Source: Rhodopirellula sp. P2 (GTDB taxonomy: Bacteria > Planctomycetota > Planctomycetia > Pirellulales > Pirellulaceae). Taken from it: 64,000 bases of DNA. The position numbers and the translations under genes are program-made. Position 1 is the stretch's first letter; every line of letters starts with the position of its first letter. The notes beneath the pieces were generated by a model that was not told the DNA's origin, ran no database searches, and was given only the letters and a program-made list of their open reading frames with translations. Shown piece after piece: positions 3,127 through 14,330 of this stretch. The stretch lies in assembly GCF_028768465.1 (NCBI RefSeq), contig NZ_CP118225.1:868001-932000 (forward strand), written 5' to 3'.

Positions 3127-4821
3127 TCAATGACTCACGAGCGGTCGCTTTCGGGCGGCCATCGGATGTCGTGAGAACGGTTGGTGATGATCCATCCCCA
3201 CGACGTTCAATTCAATCCCTTCGCGAGCAAATTCGCCTTCGAGTTCATGCAATTTTTCCATCACGCTGTGGTCGATCAGGTGAACATCGCTGAAATCAAC
3301 AGTGCAGTTCTTGCCTTGTTTCAGGCTCTTTTCAACCACTCGACGCCGAAAACTGATCCAGTTGCTGAACACGGCCGACTCGGTTGCATGAACGCTGACT
3401 TCGGTTTCGGATGTTTCATCGAACTCCAGCGTCGGTACAAACAGCGATCGAAGAGGAACACCATTGAACAGGTGAATTGCGAATTTGGTGCCGATCCCGA
3501 TGCCGATCCCGATCAACAAATCGGTGGCGAGAACAGCCACCAAGGTTGTTGCGAAGATGATCAATTGCTCACGTCCCACGCGGTACACACTTCGGAATTC
3601 ACTGGGCGATGCCAAACGAAATCCGGTGAAAACCAGCATCGCAGCCAACGCGGCCCGAGGGATGTTGTGGATCAATCCAGGCAACAGGGCAACAAATCCG
3701 AGCAAAAAGACACCGTGCCACATATTCGCGAATCGCGTCTTGGCTTGATTGTCGAGATTGGCTTTGCTCCGAACGATCTCTGAGATCATGGGCAAACCGC
3801 CGATCAAGGAGACCGCCATGTTGCCGACGCCGACCGCCCACAAGTCTCGGTCCAAGTTGGTTTTTCGTTTGTAGGGATCCAACATGTCGACGGCTTTGGC
3901 GCTGAGCAACGATTCCAAAGAACCAATCAACGCAAACATCAACACCCACCCCAATGCCGTGGGCAGTGTTTCACTGTTGAGAAACACACTGAAGTCAGGA
4001 AACGTGATCGCACCAAACAAATTGAAGGGCACGGTCACCAAGTCGCTCTCTCCAACCGCGAATTCTTTTCCCATCAATGTGTACGTGTGGTCGCTGGTCA
4101 AATTCATCGCCATTCCCAACGGGATCGCGACCAACAAAACCACCAAGGGGCCGGGGACTTTGTCGATGAAACTGATACTGGTCCGACTCTTTAGAAACGC
4201 CAGACCAAACAAGATCACCAAGGACACGCCGCCGATCAGCGCGATCTCGGGGTTCGCGTTCATCAAGAGGTGCGGCAACTCACGCAAAATTTCGAGCGGT
4301 TCGCCTGTCGCGGACTGCCCCACGACGATGGGCAATTGCTTGACCATGATGATGACCCCGATCGCGGCCAACATGCCGTGCACGGCCGCAGTGGGGAAGA
4401 AGTCACCGAGGATACCAGCCCGCAACAACCCGAATACGATCTGGACCAAACCGGCCACCACGCCAACGGCGAGCGCCATTTTGTAGGCTTGCATGTCCGC
4501 CACTTGGTCCACCCCTGCGGTGTAGCCAAAGCTATTCACGGCTCCGAGCACGATCACGATCATCCCGGCCGCGGGGCCTTTGATCGTCAGTTCGCTGTTG
4601 CTCAGAAACGTCGTCAGGACCGAGCCGACGATCGCGGTGAACACGCCAGCGATGGCGGGGAAACCGGACGCCAGTGAGATCCCCAAGCACAACGGCAAGG
4701 CGATCAAGAACACCAAACCGCCAGCGATCAGGTCGTCTTTGAAATAACGTTTGAAACCGTTGACATCGCCTCGTGGCGGCTCTTCGGTGGGGGTGACGGT
4801 GTGTTCCGAAGGTGCGTTCAT
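3127..4821 (-). CDS. SulP-family anion (probable bicarbonate) transporter with STAS domain
   Basis: The 564-residue inner-membrane protein has the SulP layout. The transmembrane core starts at about residue 25 with DLIAGGLVFLIALPLCLGISLASG, includes TIKGPAAGMIVIVLGAV, and spans at least ten helices. A cytoplasmic STAS domain occupies roughly the last 110 residues (FSDVHLIDHSVMEKLHELE). SulP proteins carry sulfate, bicarbonate or other anions; cyanobacterial BicA is a bicarbonate member. Substrate cannot be read from sequence. Bicarbonate is favoured because the gene lies directly downstream of the two-component genes that separate it from a DAB carbon-uptake operon, and both uptake loci share operator-like dyads and sigma-54 motifs. 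Confidence 0.88.
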   Translation of the reverse strand: MNAPSEHTVTPTEEPPRGDVNGFKRYFKDDLIAGGLVFLIALPLCLGISLASGFPAIAGVFTAIVGSVLTTFLSNSELTIKGPAAGMIVIVLGAVNSFGYTAGVDQVADMQAYKMALAVGVVAGLVQIVFGLLRAGILGDFFPTAAVHGMLAAIGVIIMVKQLPIVVGQSATGEPLEILRELPHLLMNANPEIALIGGVSLVILFGLAFLKSRTSISFIDKVPGPLVVLLVAIPLGMAMNLTSDHTYTLMGKEFAVGESDLVTVPFNLFGAITFPDFSVFLNSETLPTALGWVLMFALIGSLESLLSAKAVDMLDPYKRKTNLDRDLWAVGVGNMAVSLIGGLPMISEIVRSKANLDNQAKTRFANMWHGVFLLGFVALLPGLIHNIPRAALAAMLVFTGFRLASPSEFRSVYRVGREQLIIFATTLVAVLATDLLIGIGIGIGTKFAIHLFNGVPLRSLFVPTLEFDETSETEVSVHATESAVFSNWISFRRRVVEKSLKQGKNCTVDFSDVHLIDHSVMEKLHELEGEFAREGIELNVVGMDHHQPFSRHPMAARKRPLVSH

Positions 4822-4884
4822 ATTGGAATCGGCATCGCAAGCTGAGTGAAAACCATTGCCGCCGGGGCGGTCGGCTCACTCAAG

Positions 4885-4901
4885 AGCATGCATCGTACCA
4901 A
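4885..4901 (-). promoter_or_regulatory. Candidate sigma-54 (-24/-12) promoter of the SulP gene
   Basis: On the minus strand this 17-mer reads TTGGTACGATGCATGCT. Against the sigma-54 consensus TTGGCACG-N4-TTGCT it differs at two of thirteen defined positions and keeps the diagnostic GG-N10-GC spacing exactly. Transcription would begin near 4875, leaving a leader of about 54 nt before the SulP ATG at 4821. A sigma-54 activator gene lies just upstream and two dyads sit 153 and 174 bp from the -12 element. Confidence 0.6.
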
Positions 4902-4972
4902 GGCGATTCCGGAGCCCGGGCATTCCGTTCCAAGTCGCAAGCTTCTCCCGCAAATCACGGTGCCAAATCCAG

Positions 4973-4995
4973 CGGATTTTTCCTGCAAAAATCCG
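4973..4995. repeat. Perfect 9-bp inverted repeat between dyads and SulP promoter
   Basis: The arms are CGGATTTTT and AAAAATCCG around a 5-nt loop. It lies between the TGCA dyads and the -24/-12 motif, where DNA bending often matters in sigma-54 promoters. It could also be a weak terminator after the activator gene, but no T-run follows the stem. Confidence 0.45.
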
Positions 4996-5030
4996 TGACA
5001 CGCTCCGCCGACACGCCCTCCTCGAGGGAA

Positions 5031-5048
5031 CGTGCAAGCGTTTGCGTG
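5031..5048. promoter_or_regulatory. Imperfect upstream activator dyad D (TGCA-N6-TGCG)
   Basis: The core TGCA-AGCGTT-TGCG is centred at 5039.5, 153 bp from the -12 element of the SulP promoter and 21 bp (two helical turns) from the perfect dyad next to it. One core base departs from symmetry. Paired sites two turns apart are typical of enhancers for NtrC-type activators. Confidence 0.45.
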
Positions 5049-5051
5049 AAA

Positions 5052-5069
5052 CCTGCAAAGAATTGCAGG
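5052..5069. promoter_or_regulatory. Upstream activator dyad C (CCTGCA-N6-TGCAGG)
   Basis: This is an 18-bp dyad with perfect 7-bp arms (CCTGCAA/TTGCAGG) around AGAA, centred at 5060.5 and 174 bp upstream of the SulP -12 element. Its TGCA-N6-TGCA core is the same as in the two dyads upstream of dabA. It ends 2 bp before the stop codon of the activator gene. Confidence 0.55.
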
Positions 5070-5070
5070 G

Positions 5071-6438
5071 TCAGTGCAAACCGTAGCGGCCCATCTTGTA
5101 ATGCAGCGTTCGAACGCTCACACCAAGCCGTTTTGCCGTGTTTTCGCGGTGAAAATCACACTCGGCTAAAACCGCCGAGATCATCTCACGTTCACAGCTT
5201 TCGACCGCTTCGCTCAATGAGGCGGGCAGCACCTTGATGCCACTGCCCAGCATCGCGGGCTGCAAATCCGCAGGCAGCTCATCGGAATCGATCACATCGC
5301 CGGTGTGTGTCACCACCAAACGCTCGACCAGATTGCGAAGTTGGCGAACGTTCCCCGGCCACTGAGCCCCCACCAACACCCGCATCGCATCGGGAGCGAT
5401 TTGCTTCATCGGACGGCCGTGACGAGAGCAAAAGTGCTGCAGGAAATGTTCAATCAGCAGCGGGATATCATCGCGGCGTTGACGCAGCGATGGCACCTCG
5501 ATTGGAATCACATTCAAGCGATAATAGAGATCTTCGCGAAACGAGCCGTCTTGGATCATTTCCGGCACCGACTTGTTGGTGGCCGAAACCACTCGCACAT
5601 CGGTTTCCAAAACGGTTTCACCACCCACACGTGTGAATCGCCGCGATTCCAACACACGCAGCAGATCCACTTGGCTCTTCGCGGACATCTCGGTGACCTC
5701 GTCCAGAAACAACGTGCCGCCGCCCGCCTGTTCAAAGCACCCCGGTTTTTGTCGTGAGGCGCCGCTGAACGATCCTTTCTCGTGGCCGAACAACTCACTC
5801 TCGAGCAATGTTTCCGGCATCGCGCCCAAGTTGACGGCCACGAATGGACCACCACTGCGGTCGCTCAGGTCATGCAGTGCACGAGCAACAAGTTCCTTTC
5901 CCGAGCCACTTTCCCCTTGGATCATCACGGTGGCTTCGGTGGCGGCGACTTGCCGGATTTGGTGAAACACATCCTGCATCGCGGCGCATTGACCAATGAT
6001 ATTGGAGAGTTCCCCCGCATCGGCCAATCGTGTTCGCAGCGTTTGATTCTCTTGCCGCAGTTCCCGGTGTTCCCGGGCTTTGCGGACCTGTTGGCGAACC
6101 AAGTTCAAATCCAATGGCTTGGAAATGAAATCAAACGCCCCGGCCCGCATGGCATCCACGGCGGTTTCGACGGTGCCGTGCGCGGTGATCACAATCACCG
6201 ACACTTCCGGGTCGATGTGCCGCACTCGACCAAGCAATTCGATGCCGTCCATGCCTCCGCCCAATCGAACGTCGGCGATCACCAACTGGTAGTGCCCCGA
6301 TTCAAACTTGGCCAAACCACTTTCGGCGTCCACGGCAGTTTCAATTCGGTCCGCTTCTCGGACCAAACCTTTTTCCAACCCCGATCGAATGTTGGGTTCA
6401 TCATCGACGATCAAAACCGAGAATTCGCTGCGGTTCAT
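5071..6438 (-). CDS. NtrC-family sigma-54-dependent response regulator
   Basis: The 455-residue protein has three parts: a receiver (D12-D13, phospho-acceptor D56, K107), an AAA+ sigma-54 interaction domain, and a C-terminal Fis-type helix-turn-helix (ENTAKRLGVSVRTLHYKM). The AAA+ part shows Walker A GESGSGKE at 175-182 and Walker B GTLFLDE at 241-247. The sigma-54 contact loop reads GSFSGA (222-227) instead of GAFTGA, so two positions are changed while the central Phe-Gly is kept. The gene overlaps the upstream sensor kinase by 4 bp (ATGA), so the two form a cognate pair. Sigma-54-like promoters with matching dyads lie on both sides of the pair, which makes the SulP gene and the dab operon its best candidate targets. 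Confidence 0.95.
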   Translation of the reverse strand: MNRSEFSVLIVDDEPNIRSGLEKGLVREADRIETAVDAESGLAKFESGHYQLVIADVRLGGGMDGIELLGRVRHIDPEVSVIVITAHGTVETAVDAMRAGAFDFISKPLDLNLVRQQVRKAREHRELRQENQTLRTRLADAGELSNIIGQCAAMQDVFHQIRQVAATEATVMIQGESGSGKELVARALHDLSDRSGGPFVAVNLGAMPETLLESELFGHEKGSFSGASRQKPGCFEQAGGGTLFLDEVTEMSAKSQVDLLRVLESRRFTRVGGETVLETDVRVVSATNKSVPEMIQDGSFREDLYYRLNVIPIEVPSLRQRRDDIPLLIEHFLQHFCSRHGRPMKQIAPDAMRVLVGAQWPGNVRQLRNLVERLVVTHTGDVIDSDELPADLQPAMLGSGIKVLPASLSEAVESCEREMISAVLAECDFHRENTAKRLGVSVRTLHYKMGRYGLH

Positions 6439-7814
6439 GCTGGTTGACTCAGTGGAAGTAGGACCGTGAACTCGGTGCCTTGGACGGAACGGTGTGTGTC
6501 GGATGCGTCGTTCTCAAGCACCCGAAAATCAATGCTGCCATCGTGTTGCCGGACAATCTTGTCACACAGAGCCAACCCCATGCCAGTGCCGTTGTTGCGG
6601 GTTGTGAAGTACGGATCAAAAACGCGAGATCGAATTTCCTCGGGAATGCCGTTGCCTTCATCACGAACATCGATCCGAACAAATTCATCTTGGCGACTGA
6701 GACGGAACGTGAGTTTTCCGCCGTCGGCCATCGCAGCCATCCCGTTCAATGCCAAGTTCAACAGGACTTGTTCCAAACCGACCGAGTCACCCTGGATCAA
6801 GCCCACCATTTCAGCTGGGAGCTGAACGTCCAGCTTCACCGCTTGTTGCTCGGCTTGTGGACGCAGCAACCGCACCAATCGTTCGATCAAAATCGCCACG
6901 TCCACCGACGTGAGCCCGATTTGGTTGGTCGACGCGTAATTCCGGAACCCGTCCAGGACATCGTTGATGCGATGAACCTCGGTGTGCAAGACATCCAACA
7001 ATTCTTCGACTTCCGCGTCTTGTGTTGTGGCGTCCAGTCGCTCGCAGAGCAATTGAATGTGCAGGGACAGGGCACTCAGGGGGTTCTTGATTTCATGCTG
7101 CAATCCTGCGGCCAGCGACCCCAACCCCATGTAGCGTTCCATCCGGCGGAGGCGTTCTTCGATCAATTCCTTTTCCGACACATCCCGCACATGCAACACA
7201 GTCCCAATCTCCTCCCCGCGTCGATTTCGAAGCAACGTGCATCCCGCTCGCAGCGTTTGACGGTGACCTTGGTTGTCGACGGTGTAGTCACGATCGCGAA
7301 TGGGATGATGATACGTCGCGACCTCGTCACGAATTTCGGCGAGCAAGGCGTGACGCTTTCCGAGTGATTCCAACGTCCTTCCCAGATGCTCCTTGTCGCA
7401 ATGGACCAGTTGCAATCCGCTGGGGTTGATGCTGGTCATTCGGCCATTGCGATCCGTGGTGATGACCCCGGCATCCATGCTGGCCAGCACGTCGGTGGAG
7501 TAGACTTTGACATCTTGCAACGTGCGTTCGCTGCTGAGGTAGCCGCGGACAACCCAAGCCAGGGCGATCGCGGTTCCGATGATATTCAGCCCTAGTAACA
7601 CGACCAATCCGCCCTGCAAACTGAGTTCGCCTGACAATTCGCGAGCGGCTTCGAAGTCGCTCTTGGGCAGGTGTTCGGTGAGCTCCGCGAAAATTTCCTG
7701 CTCGTGGTGCACGTGATACAACATCGCCGCTGTGACCGCGAACGCCGTCAAGCTCAACAGTGCAATCCCCGCGGCGAAACGCCGGACACTGGGTCCGTCA
7801 TGGTTGTCAAACAT
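6435..7814 (-). CDS. Membrane sensor histidine kinase (NtrB-like), partner of the sigma-54 activator
   Basis: The 459-residue protein has two membrane helices (about 12-33 and 68-90) enclosing a short external loop of about 35 residues. Next come a PAS domain (about 105-210; ITTDRNGRMTSINPSG), a HisKA dimerisation helix with phospho-acceptor H240 in LQHEIKNPLSALSLH, and an HATPase domain (GMGLALCDKIVRQHDGSI). The small external loop means the signal may be sensed in the membrane or by the PAS domain rather than by a large periplasmic domain. It is the first gene of the kinase-regulator operon. Its start lies 44 bp from the dyads of the divergent dab promoter, so its own transcription may be affected by the same sites. 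Confidence 0.93.
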   Translation of the reverse strand: MFDNHDGPSVRRFAAGIALLSLTAFAVTAAMLYHVHHEQEIFAELTEHLPKSDFEAARELSGELSLQGGLVVLLGLNIIGTAIALAWVVRGYLSSERTLQDVKVYSTDVLASMDAGVITTDRNGRMTSINPSGLQLVHCDKEHLGRTLESLGKRHALLAEIRDEVATYHHPIRDRDYTVDNQGHRQTLRAGCTLLRNRRGEEIGTVLHVRDVSEKELIEERLRRMERYMGLGSLAAGLQHEIKNPLSALSLHIQLLCERLDATTQDAEVEELLDVLHTEVHRINDVLDGFRNYASTNQIGLTSVDVAILIERLVRLLRPQAEQQAVKLDVQLPAEMVGLIQGDSVGLEQVLLNLALNGMAAMADGGKLTFRLSRQDEFVRIDVRDEGNGIPEEIRSRVFDPYFTTRNNGTGMGLALCDKIVRQHDGSIDFRVLENDASDTHRSVQGTEFTVLLPLSQPA

Positions 7815-7857
7815 CGAGATCGGGTGGTTGGAAGGACAGGTTCATAGGCGGGTGCCT

Positions 7858-7873
7858 CTGCAAGGTCTTGCAG
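7858..7873. promoter_or_regulatory. Upstream activator dyad A (CTGCA-N6-TGCAG)
   Basis: Perfect 6-bp arms (CTGCAA/TTGCAG) flank GGTC, centred at 7865.5 and 155 bp upstream of the dabA -12 element. The TGCA-N6-TGCA core matches the perfect dyad near the SulP promoter. Confidence 0.55.
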
Positions 7874-7878
7874 TGCAA

Positions 7879-7898
7879 GTGTGCAAACAACTGCACAC
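7879..7898. promoter_or_regulatory. Upstream activator dyad B (GTGTGCA-N6-TGCACAC)
   Basis: Perfect 7-bp arms flank a 6-nt spacer, centred at 7888.5, 23 bp from dyad A and 132 bp upstream of the dabA -12 element. It is the second member of the pair. The arrangement mirrors the pair upstream of the SulP gene. Confidence 0.55.
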
Positions 7899-8005
7899 CG
7901 GCCGCTGACATCCAATTTCCGCTGAAATCAAACGCGGGGCCAAAAACCTCGCCATTCCCGCCCTGCAAGCTCACCAGTTGCATTCGTTTTCACCCAGAAC
8001 CACGC

Positions 8006-8022
8006 TTGGCACAACACGTGCT
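8006..8022 (+). promoter_or_regulatory. Candidate sigma-54 (-24/-12) promoter of the dab operon
   Basis: The 17-mer TTGGCACAACACGTGCT matches the consensus TTGGCACG-N4-TTGCT at eleven of thirteen defined positions and has the exact GG-N10-GC spacing. Predicted transcription start is near 8033, which gives dabA a leader of about 168 nt. A divergent NtrC-type regulator operon lies immediately upstream. Confidence 0.65.
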
Positions 8023-8067
8023 TCGCCAGGCAACCTCTGTTTTCTCGCACACGCCCCCAGAACGCCC

Positions 8068-8090
8068 AAAAAGGTGTCAGGTACCTTTTT
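8068..8090. repeat. REP-like palindrome / possible attenuator in the dabA leader
   Basis: The 8-bp arms AAAAAGGT and ACCTTTTT flank GTCAGGT. The element lies between the predicted start of transcription and dabA and ends in five T residues, so its RNA could fold like a short terminator. To my recollection, palindromes of this GGTGTCAGGTACC type are dispersed in many bacterial genomes as REP-like elements. Either reading is possible. Apart from this repeat, the dyads and the promoter, the 386-base gap 7815-8200 shows no gene. Confidence 0.5.
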
Positions 8091-8200
8091 GCGAATCCTG
8101 GCCCTTTGGGTCACTTCGGCAAAATTGATTTTGTCTTATCTTCTTTGTCATTCGCGTTCTGATTCAGCGTGCCACGCCAGACTGGCCAGATGAAGCTCGC

Positions 8201-11200
8201 ATGACCCAACCCACCCCCTCCACATCGATTGCATCCGGCGTGACCTCCGACAACCGCGATCAAACGGCTCTCTCCTCCACAGACTCCGACGACACATCAC
8301 TGCCCAGTGGTCCGATCGCCTCTCCGGCGAAAACGGACCATCCGCACTTCGATGTGGTCCATGCGATCCAGCATGCGAGGCACTTTCTACCGGCCCAGGG
8401 GCCCATTTCGGTTTTCGTTCACCACAACACCTTGCATGCTTTCGACGACATGCCGTTTGAGGAAGCTGTGCTCGAAGGCGGACGTCGATTTGGATGCGAA
8501 CCCTATCTCAGCGAAGAACGCTACCACGAAGAACTTGCTCGAGGCCGAATCTGCCGCGAAGACCTTCGCGAAGTCTTGATGGCGGACTTGCAAGAAGACG
8601 CTGACAAACTGGTGGCGACGTTTGGAACTCGCTACACGTTGCGTTTGTCGATGTTGCAAACAGAGCTTCAGCCGATGCCGGAATCGGGACTGAACTGGGC
8701 GTTGGCTGAAACGAAATTGTTGGATCGATTCCGGAACGAGGTTCCTGCTCCGTATCGTGAAAAAACAATCACTCAAACTCGCAGCTGGGTGATGCGGCAA
8801 CTCGAACCGCTCGCGAACACCCAGGCAGCTGCAAATTCATCGACTCAGCCCTCGCCTCTACCCTCGTCGCTGCGTGATCGATTGCAGGCGGCGGGCGAAT
8901 CCCAAATCCATCGCTGGAACGACCAGCAATGGGAATCTTTTGTTTTGCACGCTCTATGGGAAGCTTGCCAGCAGGGGATGGAGCAAGCGGAGGTGCCGCC
9001 ACCTACGGAAACGCACGTTGATTCGCTCAACCATTTGATGCTAGGCGAACTGGGAGTCGACCTGAACACGAAGATCGATGATGTCCTGATTCGTTTTTGC
9101 GGCAGCTTCCTCGACCAAGGTTTTGCCGATTGGGCCCTGCCAGAAAGAGAAGACGGCTTTGCCAAAGCCTTCGCAAATTTGTTCTTGGGCCGGTGGGCGA
9201 TCCGCGCGGACTGGATGGTGGGCATCGACGCGGCGCTGCGTGAGATCCAGCACACCGATTGGGACGCAATCCAAAGCATCCAGCATTCGCTCGACCAATT
9301 GGGGATTCCGAGCAACGAATGCGAGAGCTTTCTGTCGGAGTGTCTGCTCACACTGAGAGGTTGGGCCGGCATGATTTGGCAGATGGAAACGAACAGCCCA
9401 TTCTTGCCGAACCCGGTCCCAGAAGGTTCTCTCAACCAGTACTTGGCCGTTCGACTGATCTTGCTCACGCACGCGGTGGAGCACTTTGGCAAGGCAAAAT
9501 TCAGCGTTGGAACCGCCAGTGAGATCATTGGGCTCGCTTTCAAATCAGCGCGTTCCCGGTCGACTCCGTCCAAGCGTTCGCGCACCCACACCGTCTTTCA
9601 ATTGGCGCAATTGGGCGGATGGACCCCCGAACAATTGCTGAACATGTCAGCCGCTCAGTGGCGGTGCTTGATCACCGAGATCGAATCGTTTCCGTCTTTG
9701 GATCGGCGTCGTTTGTTGCACGCAGCGTACGAGCGTCACTATGCCAAACAAGCTCTCGATGCGATCGCGATTCACTCGCGTCGGCGGCGTGAGCTGGATC
9801 AGCCGACCCCGCCTCCGGCGTACGCAGCCATCTTTTGCATTGACGATCGGGAAGAGTCGTTCCGGCGTCACCTGGAAGAGGTCGATCCTGAATGCCGGAC
9901 CGCGTCGGCGGCTGGTTTCTTTGCGGTTGCGATGTACTACCAAGGAGCCGACCACGCTGATTTCCGACCTTTGTGTCCAGGGATCATCTCCCCTCAACAT
10001 TATGTTCGCGAAGAACCTTTGTTCTCGTCGATGGCGGCGGGGGAAAGAAGAGCACTCCGCAGACGACGGTTGGGATGGTTCGCTCATCAGATCCACCAAA
10101 ACTCACGGACTTTGCTTGGCGGTTGGGTCACCGGCCTGTTCGGTGCCGTGGCGACGGTCCCGATGGTCGCCCGAATCCTGGCACCTCGATTGACCTCACA
10201 GATCCGTGAGTCGATGGGGAATTTCGTGCGGCCTCCGAAAACGGAACTGCACCTGGAACGTTTGGCAGCGGAACCGGGTTCCGCTCCAGAATCGATGGGT
10301 TACAGCCTTGATGAGATGTCCCAGATCGTCGTCCGCATTCTGGAAGACATCGGGATGGTCCGAGACTTCCCACCGATCATTGTGTTCTTTGGTCATGGCA
10401 GCGGCAGCCTGAACAACCCGCACGAATCGGCTTACAACTGCGGGGCTTGCAGTGGTGGCCGCGGTGGGCCCAACGCACGTGCTTTCGCGGTGATGGCCAA
10501 TGACCCACGGGTCCGTCGACGCGTGGCTGAGCAGGGCATCGAGTTGCCCGAGGAGGTGCGTTTTGTCGGGGCCTATCACAACACATGCAGTGATGACGTG
10601 GACTACTACGACTTGGACTCCTTGCCCCGCTCGCATCGCGCACTGTTTCGGCGAATTGAATCGAATGTCAATGAAACGCGAGCTCGAAACGCACATGAGC
10701 GTGCTCGTCGGTTCGAGTCCGCGCCCTTGGATCTGACACCGCAAGAGGCGCTCGAACATGTTGAAGAACGAGCGGAAGATTTGTCGCAAGCACGCCCCGA
10801 ATACAACCACGCTACCAACGCGTTGGTCACGGTTGGTCGTCGAGATTGGTCGCGAGGATTGTTCCTGGATCGACGAGCGTTCGTGACTGAATACGATCCC
10901 GCGGTGGACGATGAAGACTGCAGCGTGCTGACCCGTATTTTGCAGGCGGCCATTCCGGTTTGTAGCGGCATCAGCTTGGAGTACTACTTTTCAACCGTCG
11001 ACGTGGAAGGCTACGGGTGCGGTTCCAAACTACCGCACAACGTCGCGTCCATGGTCGGCGTCATGACGGGTGCGGCGAGCGATTTGCGTCCTGGCCTTTC
11101 GCAGCAAATGATCGAGATCCACGAACCGATGCGGATCCTCTTTGTCATCGAGACCACCGCTGAAAAGCTGACCCAACTCGTTGCCAAAAACGAAGGCATT

Positions 11201-11455
11201 CGCCGTTTGGTGGAGGGCAACTGGGTCCAGGTCGCGGTCATCGATCCGGCCACCTCCATCATCCAACGTTATGTCGATGGACATTTCGAACCGCATGTGG
11301 TTTCAACTTCCGAAATCCCGACGGTCCAATCGTCGATGCAATGGTACCGGGGTCAGCGAGACCACCTGGGCTTTGCGACCATTCAAGAAACTGAGATCAA
11401 ACAACCGATGACTTCATCCGAATCGAACGCAAGTCCAGCGGGAGTTCTGGCATGA
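8201..11455 (+). CDS. dabA: DabA: zinc-containing cytoplasmic subunit of a DAB inorganic-carbon uptake system
   Basis: The 1084-residue protein belongs to the DUF2309/UPF0753 (DabA) family. DabA resembles a beta-carbonic anhydrase and works with a membrane partner to accumulate bicarbonate, powered by a cation gradient. The four expected zinc-site residues are present: C546 and D548 in [10 protein letters not shown]732 in [12 protein letters not shown], and C747 in [13 protein letters not shown]. The H-to-C spacing of 15 equals that known for Halothiobacillus DabA. It is longer than that protein. Its stop overlaps the start of the first membrane-subunit gene (ATGA), so the two are translationally coupled. 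A sigma-54-like promoter lies upstream. Confidence 0.93.
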
Positions 11456-12861
11456 GCACTCTGGATATTTTCTTTCACTCGCTGGGGACCGCCGTGGTTG
11501 CCAGCCCCGTGTTGCTATTGGCTGTGCTGGGACTGTCCCTGCTGGTGAATCGTCCGTTCAGCGAAACCGCCACGGTTCGTCTGACACAGATGTCGGTGTT
11601 GCTGTCGCTGCTGCCAGCCATCGCGATTTTGATCGCGATGTTGGCGACCGGCATTCGCAACGTACCGATTGAATTTGGAAACTGGGTCACGATTCCTGAG
11701 CAAGCGTTTCACTTCCATCTGAAGTTCACGTTTGATCGGCTGAGCATTCCGTTCCTGATGCTGTCGTGCGTGTTGTGCGGCGTCGTCGGTGAATTCTCGC
11801 GGCGATACCTGCACCGCGAGCAAGGCTTTGCCCGGTTCTTTTTGTTCTATGCCATCTTTTATTGTGGGATGGTGCTGTCCTCCTTGGCAGGCACGATTGA
11901 AACCCTGTTTGTTGGTTGGGAGATGGTCGGTCTGTCGTCAGCTTTGTTGATCGCCTACTTCCACGAACGCGAAAATCCGGTTCGCAACGGGCAACGCGTC
12001 TGGACGATCTACCGACTCTCAGACGCCGCCTTGTTGATCGCCGCGATCACCATGCATCACATGGTGGGTGAAGGTGACTTTGGCGGGCTGATGAGTTCAG
12101 GGATCTGGCCCGAAGGCACCGCAGCGGTGACGCCTTCTCAGGCGTTGCTGGTCGGCACATTGTTGTTGATTGGTGCAGCGGGAAAATCGGCATTGTTTCC
12201 GTTCAGCGGATGGTTGCCCCGAGCGATGGAAGGTCCCACCCCTTCCAGCGCCATTTTCTATGGTGCCTTGTCGGTGCACTTGGGTGCCTATTTGTTGCTT
12301 CGACTCAGCCCGCTGATTGAAGCCTCGCTTGCATTGCAAATGATGGTGTTGTCACTCGGAGCAATCTCTGCGGTCGGTGGCGCGTTGATGTCTCGGGTTC
12401 AGAACGACGTGAAGACCTCGTTGGCGTATGCCTCGCTCACCCAGGTGGGAATCATCGTGGTCGAAATTGGGCTGGGACTCCGTTACCTCGCGTTGATTCA
12501 CATCATGGGTCACGCGACGTTGCGAACCATGCAATTGCTTCGTGCTCCAACACTGCTTCGTGACTACAACGACCTCGAAAACAAGATCGGCTCGCGTCTG
12601 AAGCAACCGTCTTGGTCGGGCGTGCGTTGGCTGCCCCAATCGGCTCAGCGTTGGTGCTATCGATTTGGCTTCGACCGCGGCTTCATGGACATCGCCCTGG
12701 ATCGCTGGGTCGCAGGTCCATTTGTGAAGTGTTTCCGGACCTGCAATGAGTGGGAACACAGAATCACTTGTTGGCTTTCGCGTGAACCGGATGCAAACAC
12801 GGAAGAGGGCTCGCCAGATTTAGCCAACGACACATCACAAGACATCTCCACCGCCGCTTAG
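11452..12861 (+). CDS. dabB: DabB-like membrane subunit 1 (NuoL/MrpA-type antiporter fold)
   Basis: The 469-residue polytopic protein is of the proton-translocating NADH dehydrogenase/antiporter (Proton_antipo_M) type. Segments shared with NuoL include [18 protein letters not shown], a lysine in [43 protein letters not shown] and [15 protein letters not shown]. The C-terminal 100 residues are soluble and basic. DabB proteins couple cation flow to carbon capture by DabA. The 4-bp overlap with dabA and the 11-bp gap to a second antiporter-like gene show one operon. Confidence 0.9.
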
Positions 12862-12872
12862 GAATTCAACCG

Positions 12873-14330
12873 TTGTCTGAACTGCATTTTCCCTGGATCG
12901 AGTGTTCGATCCTTGTTCCGCTTCTCGGCGTGTTGTGGCTGCAATGGCGTGGCAATGGCGAACGCGCCTTGCGTGACACCGTCGTGGTGTGCGTTGTGAC
13001 GTTGTTGCTGACGATCGGCGAATTGGTGGACTTCACCATGATCGGCGCCTTCGAAGCCCATGATCACTGGGCGTTTCTGCGCTGGATTTTTCCGCCGGAT
13101 GTCTTTGTCATTGACGAACTGAGCGCCTTTCAATTGCCATTGGCGGCTTTGATCTTCATGGTCATCGTGCTCTCAACGCTCCGCACGAAGGCGCCCAGGT
13201 TCTCATTGGAACTGGCTTTGATATCCGAATCGTTGGTCCTGGCCACCTTCAGCTGTCGGGCATCTTGGGCTTTGATCGTTCTGCTCATCGCATCAACGAT
13301 CCCTCCGCTCTTGGAATTGCGCCGCCGCAAACGCTGCACTCGAATCTATTGTTTGCACATGGGGCTGTTTGCCGGATTGTTGGTCGTTGGCTACGGATGG
13401 CTGACAATGGTCGATCCCAGTTCATCTGCGGTTTTGATCCCAGGTGCGTTTTTGACCGCCGCTGGACTGCTTCGCAGCGGTATTTTCCCGCTGCACTTGT
13501 GGATGACAGATCTCTTTGAAAAAGCCACCTTTGGCACCGCGATCTTGCACACGACTCCATTGGTGGGTGCCTACGCGGTGATGCGTCTGGTGCTGCCAAT
13601 CGCTCCGTCTTGGGCACTGCAAAGCATCGCAGTGTTGTCCTTGTTCACCGCGGTGTATGCCGGTGCGATGGCGTTGGTGCAATCGGACGCTCGACGAATG
13701 TTTTGCTTTTTGCTGCTGTCTCAGTCCTCCTTGATTTTGGTGGGCTTGGAACTGGTCACCCCGATCGGTCTGACCGGCGCGCTGTGCTTGTGGCTGTCAG
13801 TGGCGATGTCGCTGACCGGGTTTGGGATCACGCTGCGATGCATCGAAGCCCGCATCTCAAGAATCTCACTGAATGAATTCCATGGCCTGTACCCGCAGAT
13901 GCCAATGCTGGCGGGCTTCTTCTTGCTGACAGGACTGGCATCGATTGGGTTTCCAGCGACCGTGGGATTTGTCGGGATGGAATTGCTGATCGAAGGTGCA
14001 GTGGAGGTCTATCCACTGGTGGGAACAATGGTGGTGATCGCGACGGCATTTTGTGGTGTCGCGGTTCTACTCGCTTACTTTCGTGTCTTCACCGGCTGCG
14101 AGAACCGAACGGTGATCTCGATGCGAGCCCGGCCTGCTGAGCGATTCGCCATTTTGCTGCTGACGTTGTTGTTGCTGGGAGGCGGACTGTACCCACAACC
14201 TGGCATCGCGTCTCGCTACCACGCAGCGAAAGAGTTGACTCGTTTACGGAGCAACGCTTCGATCGAAGACGCTCCGGCGGAACCTGCGGCGCATGGGCAC
14301 GCGTTGGCCGCCGCAAACATTTCTGAATGA
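12873..14330 (+). CDS. Second antiporter-like membrane subunit of the DAB operon (NuoM/MrpD-type)
   Basis: The 485-residue polytopic protein resembles NuoM/MrpD subunits more than its upstream neighbour. It has a conserved lysine-less GIFPLHLWMTDLFEKATFGTAILHTTPLVGAYAVMRL segment in place of the AGKS form, and QSDARRMFCFLLLSQSSLILVG further on. About 13 hydrophobic stretches are visible. Translation starts at TTG 12873, preceded by AGGAA at 8 nt. It follows the first membrane subunit by 11 bp. Described DAB systems usually list one membrane subunit, so this gene could be an added cation channel module. Role in carbon uptake is inferred from position. Confidence 0.82.
   Translation: MSELHFPWIECSILVPLLGVLWLQWRGNGERALRDTVVVCVVTLLLTIGELVDFTMIGAFEAHDHWAFLRWIFPPDVFVIDELSAFQLPLAALIFMVIVLSTLRTKAPRFSLELALISESLVLATFSCRASWALIVLLIASTIPPLLELRRRKRCTRIYCLHMGLFAGLLVVGYGWLTMVDPSSSAVLIPGAFLTAAGLLRSGIFPLHLWMTDLFEKATFGTAILHTTPLVGAYAVMRLVLPIAPSWALQSIAVLSLFTAVYAGAMALVQSDARRMFCFLLLSQSSLILVGLELVTPIGLTGALCLWLSVAMSLTGFGITLRCIEARISRISLNEFHGLYPQMPMLAGFFLLTGLASIGFPATVGFVGMELLIEGAVEVYPLVGTMVVIATAFCGVAVLLAYFRVFTGCENRTVISMRARPAERFAILLLTLLLLGGGLYPQPGIASRYHAAKELTRLRSNASIEDAPAEPAAHGHALAAANISE

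Follow-up and report, generated by a model that had tools for sequence, protein, structure and literature searches.

Related systems and the locus

Regulators of the AtoC/NtrC type are known, as a family, to activate the sigma-54 form of RNA polymerase by DNA looping. AtoC of Escherichia coli, associated with the neighbouring kinase AtoS and with atoDAEB, is a well-placed example: its site at atoD has been mapped experimentally, as an inverted 40-bp palindrome (PMC3118216). Our subject is a locus of the planctomycete Rhodopirellula sp. P2, in a window of 64,000 nucleotides (positions 868,001 to 932,000 of contig NZ_CP118225.1, part of a 7.29-Mb single-contig genome), where a two-component system made of a histidine kinase (HK) and a response regulator (RR) lies between a SulP-family transporter gene and the genes of a DAB inorganic-carbon transporter. 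Our whole explanation, which we regard as likely, and strongly so, is that this AtoC-like system activates the dab and sulP genes of inorganic-carbon uptake via paired dyads and sigma-54 promoters. Judged from its sequence, the two-component system would very probably switch the uptake of inorganic carbon, in an organism whose genome gave no RuBisCO match.

DAB systems turn CO2 into bicarbonate in a process coupled to the proton-motive force, and they are widespread, heterotrophs included, according to an article on the structure of DAB2 (PMC13144422). The word 'transcription' is absent from the searched part of that article. Clusters of ybcC (dabA) and nuoL that also hold NuoM and COG0659 (SulP) genes were noted in the COGNAT paper, as its clade C, and the same partial text names LysR genes as neighbours in clade A and P-II genes in clade B (PMC5700660). 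The present locus resembles these clusters in its dabA-dabB genes accompanied by NuoM-like and SulP genes; it differs in that LysR or P-II is what that text names, not a sigma-54 two-component system. Among the literature matches listed, with subscription papers mostly outside, control of DAB, SulP or SbtA by a two-component system or sigma-54 was not found. The earlier sequence-only reading, which spoke of a new control scheme for DAB systems, is supported, the system being AtoC-like and its targets broader than claimed.

The LysR regulators CcmR, CmpR and CbbR have roles in the control of inorganic-carbon uptake, and regulators of this type are not known to need a kinase or sigma-54. Control of CO2-concentrating genes by carbon supply, via a transcription factor, is described in PMC3401165. 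Such control of carbon-uptake genes by carbon supply is what these regulators would share with the system in the window, which differs from them as a predicted phosphorelay ending in an enhancer-type activator. Nearer to our organism, Pirellula sp. strain 1 is presumably what is now called Rhodopirellula baltica. Its sigma-54 regulon was studied earlier (cited in PMC12316311), and that study may list some of the promoters discussed below.

The genes that matter here are the following:

3127..4821, minus strand: sulP, SulP-family anion transporter of 564 amino acids (aa); Pfam Sulfate_transp, 195 bits
5071..6438, minus strand: RR gene, response regulator of AtoC/NtrC type; Pfam Response_reg, Sigma54_activat and HTH_8
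6435..7814, minus strand: HK gene, membrane sensor histidine kinase; Pfam PAS_4, HisKA and HATPase
8201..11455, plus strand: dabA, DAB inorganic-carbon transporter subunit of 1084 aa; PF10070, 776 bits
11452..12861, plus strand: dabB, NuoL-like proton-channel subunit; Pfam Proton_antipo_M and _N
12873..14330, plus strand: dabB2, NuoM-like second channel subunit with a TTG start; Pfam Proton_antipo_M

The genes for SulP, RR and HK thus form a row on the minus strand, the HK and RR reading frames overlapping by 4 bp, and dabA-dabB-dabB2 (8201-14330) diverges from it on the plus strand; Pfam families and coordinates both confirm the layout of the sequence-only reading, a two-component system between SulP and a divergent dab operon. 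The regulator has the domains of the enhancer-binding class, a receiver, an AAA+ sigma-54 activator and a Fis-type helix-turn-helix (HTH) in Pfam. At the N-terminus of the kinase, two hydrophobic segments enclose a short loop (N-termini were compared by eye). DabA aligns with the DabA2 subunit of the solved structure 9rd0 and displays the motifs CID at 546, GHGS at 731 and CGAC at 747; C546, D548, H732 and the CGAC (747) line up with those of DabA2, as expected of a DAB protein, and a DabB partner is present. These positions we take to be the zinc ligands. The STAS match at the C-terminus of SulP is weak, below the Pfam cut-off. The genome has rpoN in one place (PF04552, 212 bits). Further outward come SUI1-like and TrmK-like genes beyond sulP and a sugar porter beyond dab; elsewhere in the window, the gene at 791-2044 encodes a protein that joins a receiver to a Ser/Thr protein kinase domain.

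Predicted paired operators and sigma-54 promoters

The two intergenic regions hold these predicted sites, the dyads being given without strand:

4885..4900, minus strand: sigma-54-type -24/-12 site of sulP, TGGTACGATGCATGCT; GG-N10-GC, 10/12 positions
5033..5046: predicted operator dyad TGCAAGCGTTTGCG; one mismatch, promoter-proximal partner of the sulP pair
5054..5067: predicted operator dyad TGCAAAGAATTGCA; exact, 21 bp from TGCAAGCGTTTGCG
7859..7872: predicted operator dyad TGCAAGGTCTTGCA; exact, between HK and dabA
7882..7895: predicted operator dyad TGCAAACAACTGCA; exact, 23 bp from TGCAAGGTCTTGCA, its start 125 bp before the -24 site
8007..8022, plus strand: sigma-54-type -24/-12 site of dabA, TGGCACAACACGTGCT; GG-N10-GC, 10/12 consensus positions

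The earlier proposal of a -24/-12 motif with paired dyads on both sides of the two-component system is therefore sound for the GG-N10-GC spacing at both promoters and for the exact pair at dabA, and has to be softened for the sulP pair with its one mismatch, the promoter-proximal dyad of which starts 146 bp ahead of the -24 site. The 16-mer TGGCACAACACGTGCT is found unchanged upstream of dabA in relatives' loci L045, L046 and L047, and TGCAAGCGTTTGCG has equivalents in L045-L047 and L056. Another candidate for the sulP promoter, TGGCACCGTGATTTGC at 4965 on the minus strand, was discarded for its GG-GC spacing of 11.

Taken singly, promoter and dyad are weak signals. Eight promoter-like sites at 10 or 11 of 12 positions occur on the two strands of the 64-kb window, so that the motif alone is not significant there, and TGCAAN4TTGCA has 13 matches in the genome, against 13 for its reversed control. 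It is the combination of dyad pair and promoter that is not due to chance. The exact pair (TGCA-N6-TGCA, N5-9, TGCA-N6-TGCA) occurs just twice in 7.29 Mb, the reversed control giving 0: at 7859 of the window, before HK-RR and dabA, and at genome position 5334604, before a paralog of the regulator.

The same disposition exists in E. coli K-12. Its atoD promoter region carries TGCAGAAATTTGCA and CGCAATTTTCTGCA 19 bp apart (at 5268 and 5287 of locus L195), one of the two with a mismatch, followed by the GG-N10-GC site TGGCACTCCCCTTGC at 5387, with 100 bp from the beginning of the second dyad to its own. The regulator of the window is 42% identical to K-12 AtoC over 451 aligned positions, and the motif (V/I/L)RTLHYKM is present in the HTH of all 66 RR homologues collected. 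This identity, the like layout at atoD and the shared motif lead us to infer that the regulator of these planctomycetes recognises the same operator as AtoC. The resemblance with AtoS-AtoC/atoDAEB thus comprises a neighbouring kinase and sigma-54 response regulator, as well as paired TGCA-N6-TGCA dyads ahead of a GG-N10-GC promoter. The differences are in the targets, here inorganic-carbon genes, in the short loop of a kinase of 459 aa (608 aa in AtoS), and in the family models: AtoC and AtoS are the best NCBIfam models for RR and HK, and their equivalog cut-offs are well above the scores (456 bits against 714 for AtoC, 246 against 646 for AtoS).

The chain of events that we propose would begin with the membrane kinase responding to a cue tied to a shortage of inorganic carbon and, as its family suggests, phosphorylating the regulator. 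The latter would bind the paired TGCA-N6-TGCA dyads, set about two helical turns apart, as their co-occurrence and the example of E. coli AtoC suggest, and would then drive sigma-54 RNA polymerase at the -24/-12 promoter by DNA looping. Two transcripts would follow in the window, dabA-dabB-dabB2 and sulP. DAB would hydrate CO2 to bicarbonate at the expense of the proton-motive force, and SulP, predicted to be a bicarbonate transporter, would import bicarbonate. In relatives, the same operator would serve either a cluster of dab and sulP or separate genes, for SulP, SbtA, a carbonic-anhydrase-family protein or an NhaD-like protein.

The operator follows the regulator

We compared 199 genomes of the family, counting an RR at E 1e-130 or better and an HK at E 1e-70 or better, with only the 8 best first-look RR/HK candidates scored in each genome. 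The exact pair is present in 67/199 genomes, against 4/199 for the reversed pattern. It goes with the regulator: 57 genomes have both, 10 the pair only, 14 the RR only and 118 neither (p 6e-26), which means that the pair is found in 57/71 genomes with RR and in 10 of the 128 without. At least 3 of the pair-only genomes (G046, G051, G068) owe their match to short tandem repeats, as seen in the sequence. An HK homologue accompanies the RR in 70/71 genomes and is found in 0 of the RR-negative ones.

A finer view is given by the DNA upstream of dabA. A DabA match exists in 119/199 genomes, from which 60 dabA loci were taken; score guided most of the choice, and some loci were added for distant relatives (G159 gave two). 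We call architecture a pair of dyads spaced 17-25 bp, which together have no more than 2 mismatches, plus a GG-N10-GC site of at least 9/12 at 60-220 bp. It precedes dabA in 42/60 loci, compared with 1/3000 dinucleotide shuffles, and it tracks the regulator: 42/47 dabA loci have it when the genome contains the RR, 0/13 when it does not (Fisher 1.7e-9). The case that would have told against the proposal, transporters kept without the kinase and regulator, was looked for and does exist (these 13/60 loci), yet there the sites are missing too. At dabA the dyads have a spacing of 18-23 bp, usually 20-21, and from there it is another 111-217 bp (median 147) to the promoter. The sites persist in DNA that has otherwise diverged, since blastn finds only 3/60 upstream regions still similar to that of the window.

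Five of the 47 RR-positive loci miss the architecture (L061, L069, L076, L089, L096). Locus L061 has dyads and no promoter reaching 9; L069 passes when the region is extended by 30 bases on the side of the gene, making 43/60; and the misses of L089 and L096 are partly explained by an RR that adjoins SbtA (G019, L126) or an RND pump (G105, L125) there. Adding the window itself, plus four loci that belong to a different family, brings the extended tally to 48/65.

Gene order is less constant than the sites. In the relatives' loci long enough to show it, dabB2 comes after dabB, and sulP lies within 1 kb after dabB2 in 37/60; among the others, 7 loci stop too early or have a truncated dabB2, sulP was elsewhere in the stretch in 6, and in 10 none was seen in the 583-715 bases covered. 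The comparison across Pirellulaceae that had been suggested for order and sites together thus supports the sites, in 42/60 loci, and leaves an order that varies.

Among 392 genomes drawn from the whole phylum, 18 have the RR at E 1e-125 or better, and 13 of these belong to another family of the same class. The operator pair, with at most 1 mismatch, is present in 12 of these 13 loci. The neighbours of the two-component system there, within the loci, are DAB in 4, SbtA in 3, a carbonic-anhydrase-family gene in 3, an RND pump in 1 and none recognised in 2 (L216, L224), and all 4 loci with DAB beside it have the architecture. Because regulator, operator and DAB are found together in another family, the scheme is not confined to that of the window. 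Named carriers of the two-component system with DAB are Roseimaritima sediminicola, Rhodopirellula sallentina and Thalassoglobus neptunius. Spread by plasmids was considered and set aside: the RR has matches at 1e-100 in 11 plasmid records, none of which reaches 60% identity.

Other genes behind the same operator

The architecture is not reserved to dabA. When sulP is away from dabB2, it has the architecture in 10/15 relatives' loci (L045-L047, L056, L110, L112, L119, L120, L188 and L189, the last with a long leader), four of which are close relatives with the gene order of the window. It also stands before SbtA-family (Sbt_1) genes in 4 loci (L215, L218, L221, L126) and before a carbonic-anhydrase-family gene in 3 (L217, L219, L220). 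These last genes, of 312 aa, are at L217:3361-4299, L219:3470-4408 and L220:14215-15153, in another family of the same class. Finding this operator and promoter ahead of SbtA and carbonic-anhydrase-family genes is independent support for the inorganic-carbon reading. An SbtA gene is not, as a rule, under this operator: Sbt_1 is found in 17/199 family genomes, and only that of G019 is near the RR by its coordinates.

Two loci have the architecture before NhaD-like genes, L177 (5159-6502) and L182 (6148-7800); L177 comes from G045, where the two-component system is present and DabA and SulP matches are absent at the thresholds used. These proteins match CitMHS, and might recycle Na+ or be bicarbonate carriers that have gone unrecognised. 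Citrate uptake was rejected, as both proteins behind the operator group with NhaD in NCBIfam (above one NhaD cut-off, below another). Nor is NhaD a regular companion of sulP, being adjacent in L145 and L146 only, and about 3 and 6 kb off in L110 and L092. Porin O/P genes are often near the two-component system, with paired dyads before 8/9 examined and a single dyad in L052; they are possible members of the regulon, not firm ones, for the promoter fits in 2/9 (L215, L218). A second DAB of the genome, at L105:7316-11683 (C1:5974091 region), has the order dabB-dabA and a DabA of 903 aa (PF10070, 815 bits); dyads are absent there, and we do not count it in the regulon.

Weighing the explanation

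The link between regulator, operator and transporters commands our high confidence, as read from sequence. The inorganic-carbon meaning of the regulon is very likely, and the bicarbonate-uptake regulon of the earlier proposal is supported by an architecture that tracks the RR (42/47 vs 0/13) and by the SbtA and carbonic-anhydrase-family genes behind the same sites. The 'heterotroph' in that proposal fits as well: no match to the RuBisCO large subunit exists in this genome, where other carbon-fixation routes were not searched. In the family such a match is found in 16/199 genomes.

Several observations weigh on the other side. The relatives are neither independent nor randomly drawn. A DabA match without RR is found in 55/199 genomes, so that the regulator accounts for part of the DAB distribution. 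To the five RR-positive loci without the architecture must be added five separate sulP genes that fail (L145, L146, L228, L229, L230, with L146 failing solely by promoter distance). The sigma-54 contact loop of the window RR reads GSFSGA, not GAFTGA; in 68 RR rows one finds GSFSGA 25 times, GSFTGA 16, GAFTGA 13 and GAFSGA 10, with none found in 4 (including 2 outgroups). The SulP of the window scores 101 bits on the NCBIfam BicA model, below its cut-off of 880, the Pro_CA match of the carbonic-anhydrase-family genes spans about two thirds of the profile, and a RuBisCO-family match exists in 5/71 RR genomes. Finally, some RRs of this family have HlyD/AcrB pump genes as neighbours, and these RRs fall into two distinct regions of a tree of 66. 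Such RND-pump neighbours imply that the regulator is not dedicated to inorganic carbon alone, and 'self-contained', as the regulon had been called, has to be given up: regulators with a like operator also adjoin an RND pump, one of them in this very genome.

That one is the paralog already mentioned (L124), 63% identical to the window RR, whose pair is the one at 5334604; no kinase match lies beside it at the scoring threshold. In this stretch (L124:6878-14483, C1:5332877-5340482) the paralog with its operator is divergent from a cytidylate-kinase-like, an HlyD and an AcrB-family gene. At the thresholds given above, two RR places for one HK place are seen in this genome (G000) and in G130, G141, G166, G180, G013 and G198; one kinase may serve two regulators, as a branched system, or the second regulator may have another partner.

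Among other explanations, the best placed, though unlikely, is a regulon for alkaline pH or sodium stress, where the kinase would sense pH or ion balance and the targets would serve pH homeostasis, carbon being secondary. In its favour, two loci have an NhaD-like antiporter among the targets, the RR family has links to RND pumps, and pH is affected by the uptake of bicarbonate as well as by CO2 hydration and Na+/H+ exchange. Against this, the targets that recur across unrelated families are DAB, SulP, SbtA and carbonic anhydrase, and extrusion of Na+ would also aid Na+-coupled bicarbonate uptake.

It is quite improbable that the system has kept a metabolic signal of the AtoC kind, such as a short-chain acid, with carbon uptake as one output of a control by carbon status. 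AtoC and AtoS are indeed the best models and the operator is that of AtoC; the distance to the cut-offs of both models, the size of the kinase and its short loop speak otherwise, and atoDAEB-type genes are absent among the window genes scanned (Pfam, NCBIfam), the rest of the genome not having been searched for them.

We give similarly little credit to the idea that SulP carries sulfate or another anion and stands beside the two-component system incidentally. SulP is a broad anion family, the BicA score is far below cut-off, and the best match of the window protein in the PDB is a sulphate-transporter entry. Yet sulP follows dabB2 in 37/60 loci and, where it lies elsewhere, comes with an operator and promoter to itself in 10/15, and the dab-nuoM-COG0659 cluster had been noted earlier, in PMC5700660. 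Many of its relatives add a P-II domain. The loci yield 24 complete SulP frames, with some genes represented twice; 13 frames are of a long form (640-686 aa, counted from the match start) and 11 of the short form seen in the window (548-564 aa). P-II is above the Pfam cut-off in 7/8 long ones scanned and also in L189, and Pfam finds none in the SulP of the window. These C-terminal domains (L119, L188, L189, L229, L231, L238, L251, L257) are, to our mind, reminiscent of SbtB-type control. That some other regulator binds the dyads, the adjacent system being there by coincidence, is hardly credible: the RR does have a paralog in a genome that is probably rich in NtrC-type regulators (86 first-look candidates, 8 scored), but pairs track the RR family over 199 genomes and over dabA loci, and both exact pairs of the genome precede this HK-RR operon or the RR paralog.

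A possible modular regulon and its meaning

Within the inorganic-carbon explanation, what the kinase perceives is another matter, and direct sensing of CO2 or bicarbonate is somewhat doubtful. We may tentatively go further and picture a new branch of the AtoSC kind, a dedicated CO2- or bicarbonate-sensing sigma-54 two-component system in at least two planctomycete families, commanding a modular inorganic-carbon regulon in mostly RuBisCO-less bacteria. Its modules might be DAB, SulP with or without P-II, SbtA, carbonic anhydrase, NhaD and perhaps an anion porin, with sensing by a conserved short periplasmic loop or by PAS, a picture to be entertained with the same reserve.

What the locus offers is concrete: an activator, an operator, a promoter class and a list of targets, in which carbon transporters of different kinds replace one another behind a single operator. 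The manner and timing of bicarbonate uptake by heterotrophs thereby become testable. The AtoC-type operator would have been kept across phyla while its targets differ. The regulon of the window also ties in with observations from the field, where sequences related to Rhodopirellula baltica were found in fractions assimilating dissolved inorganic carbon (PMC3463544).

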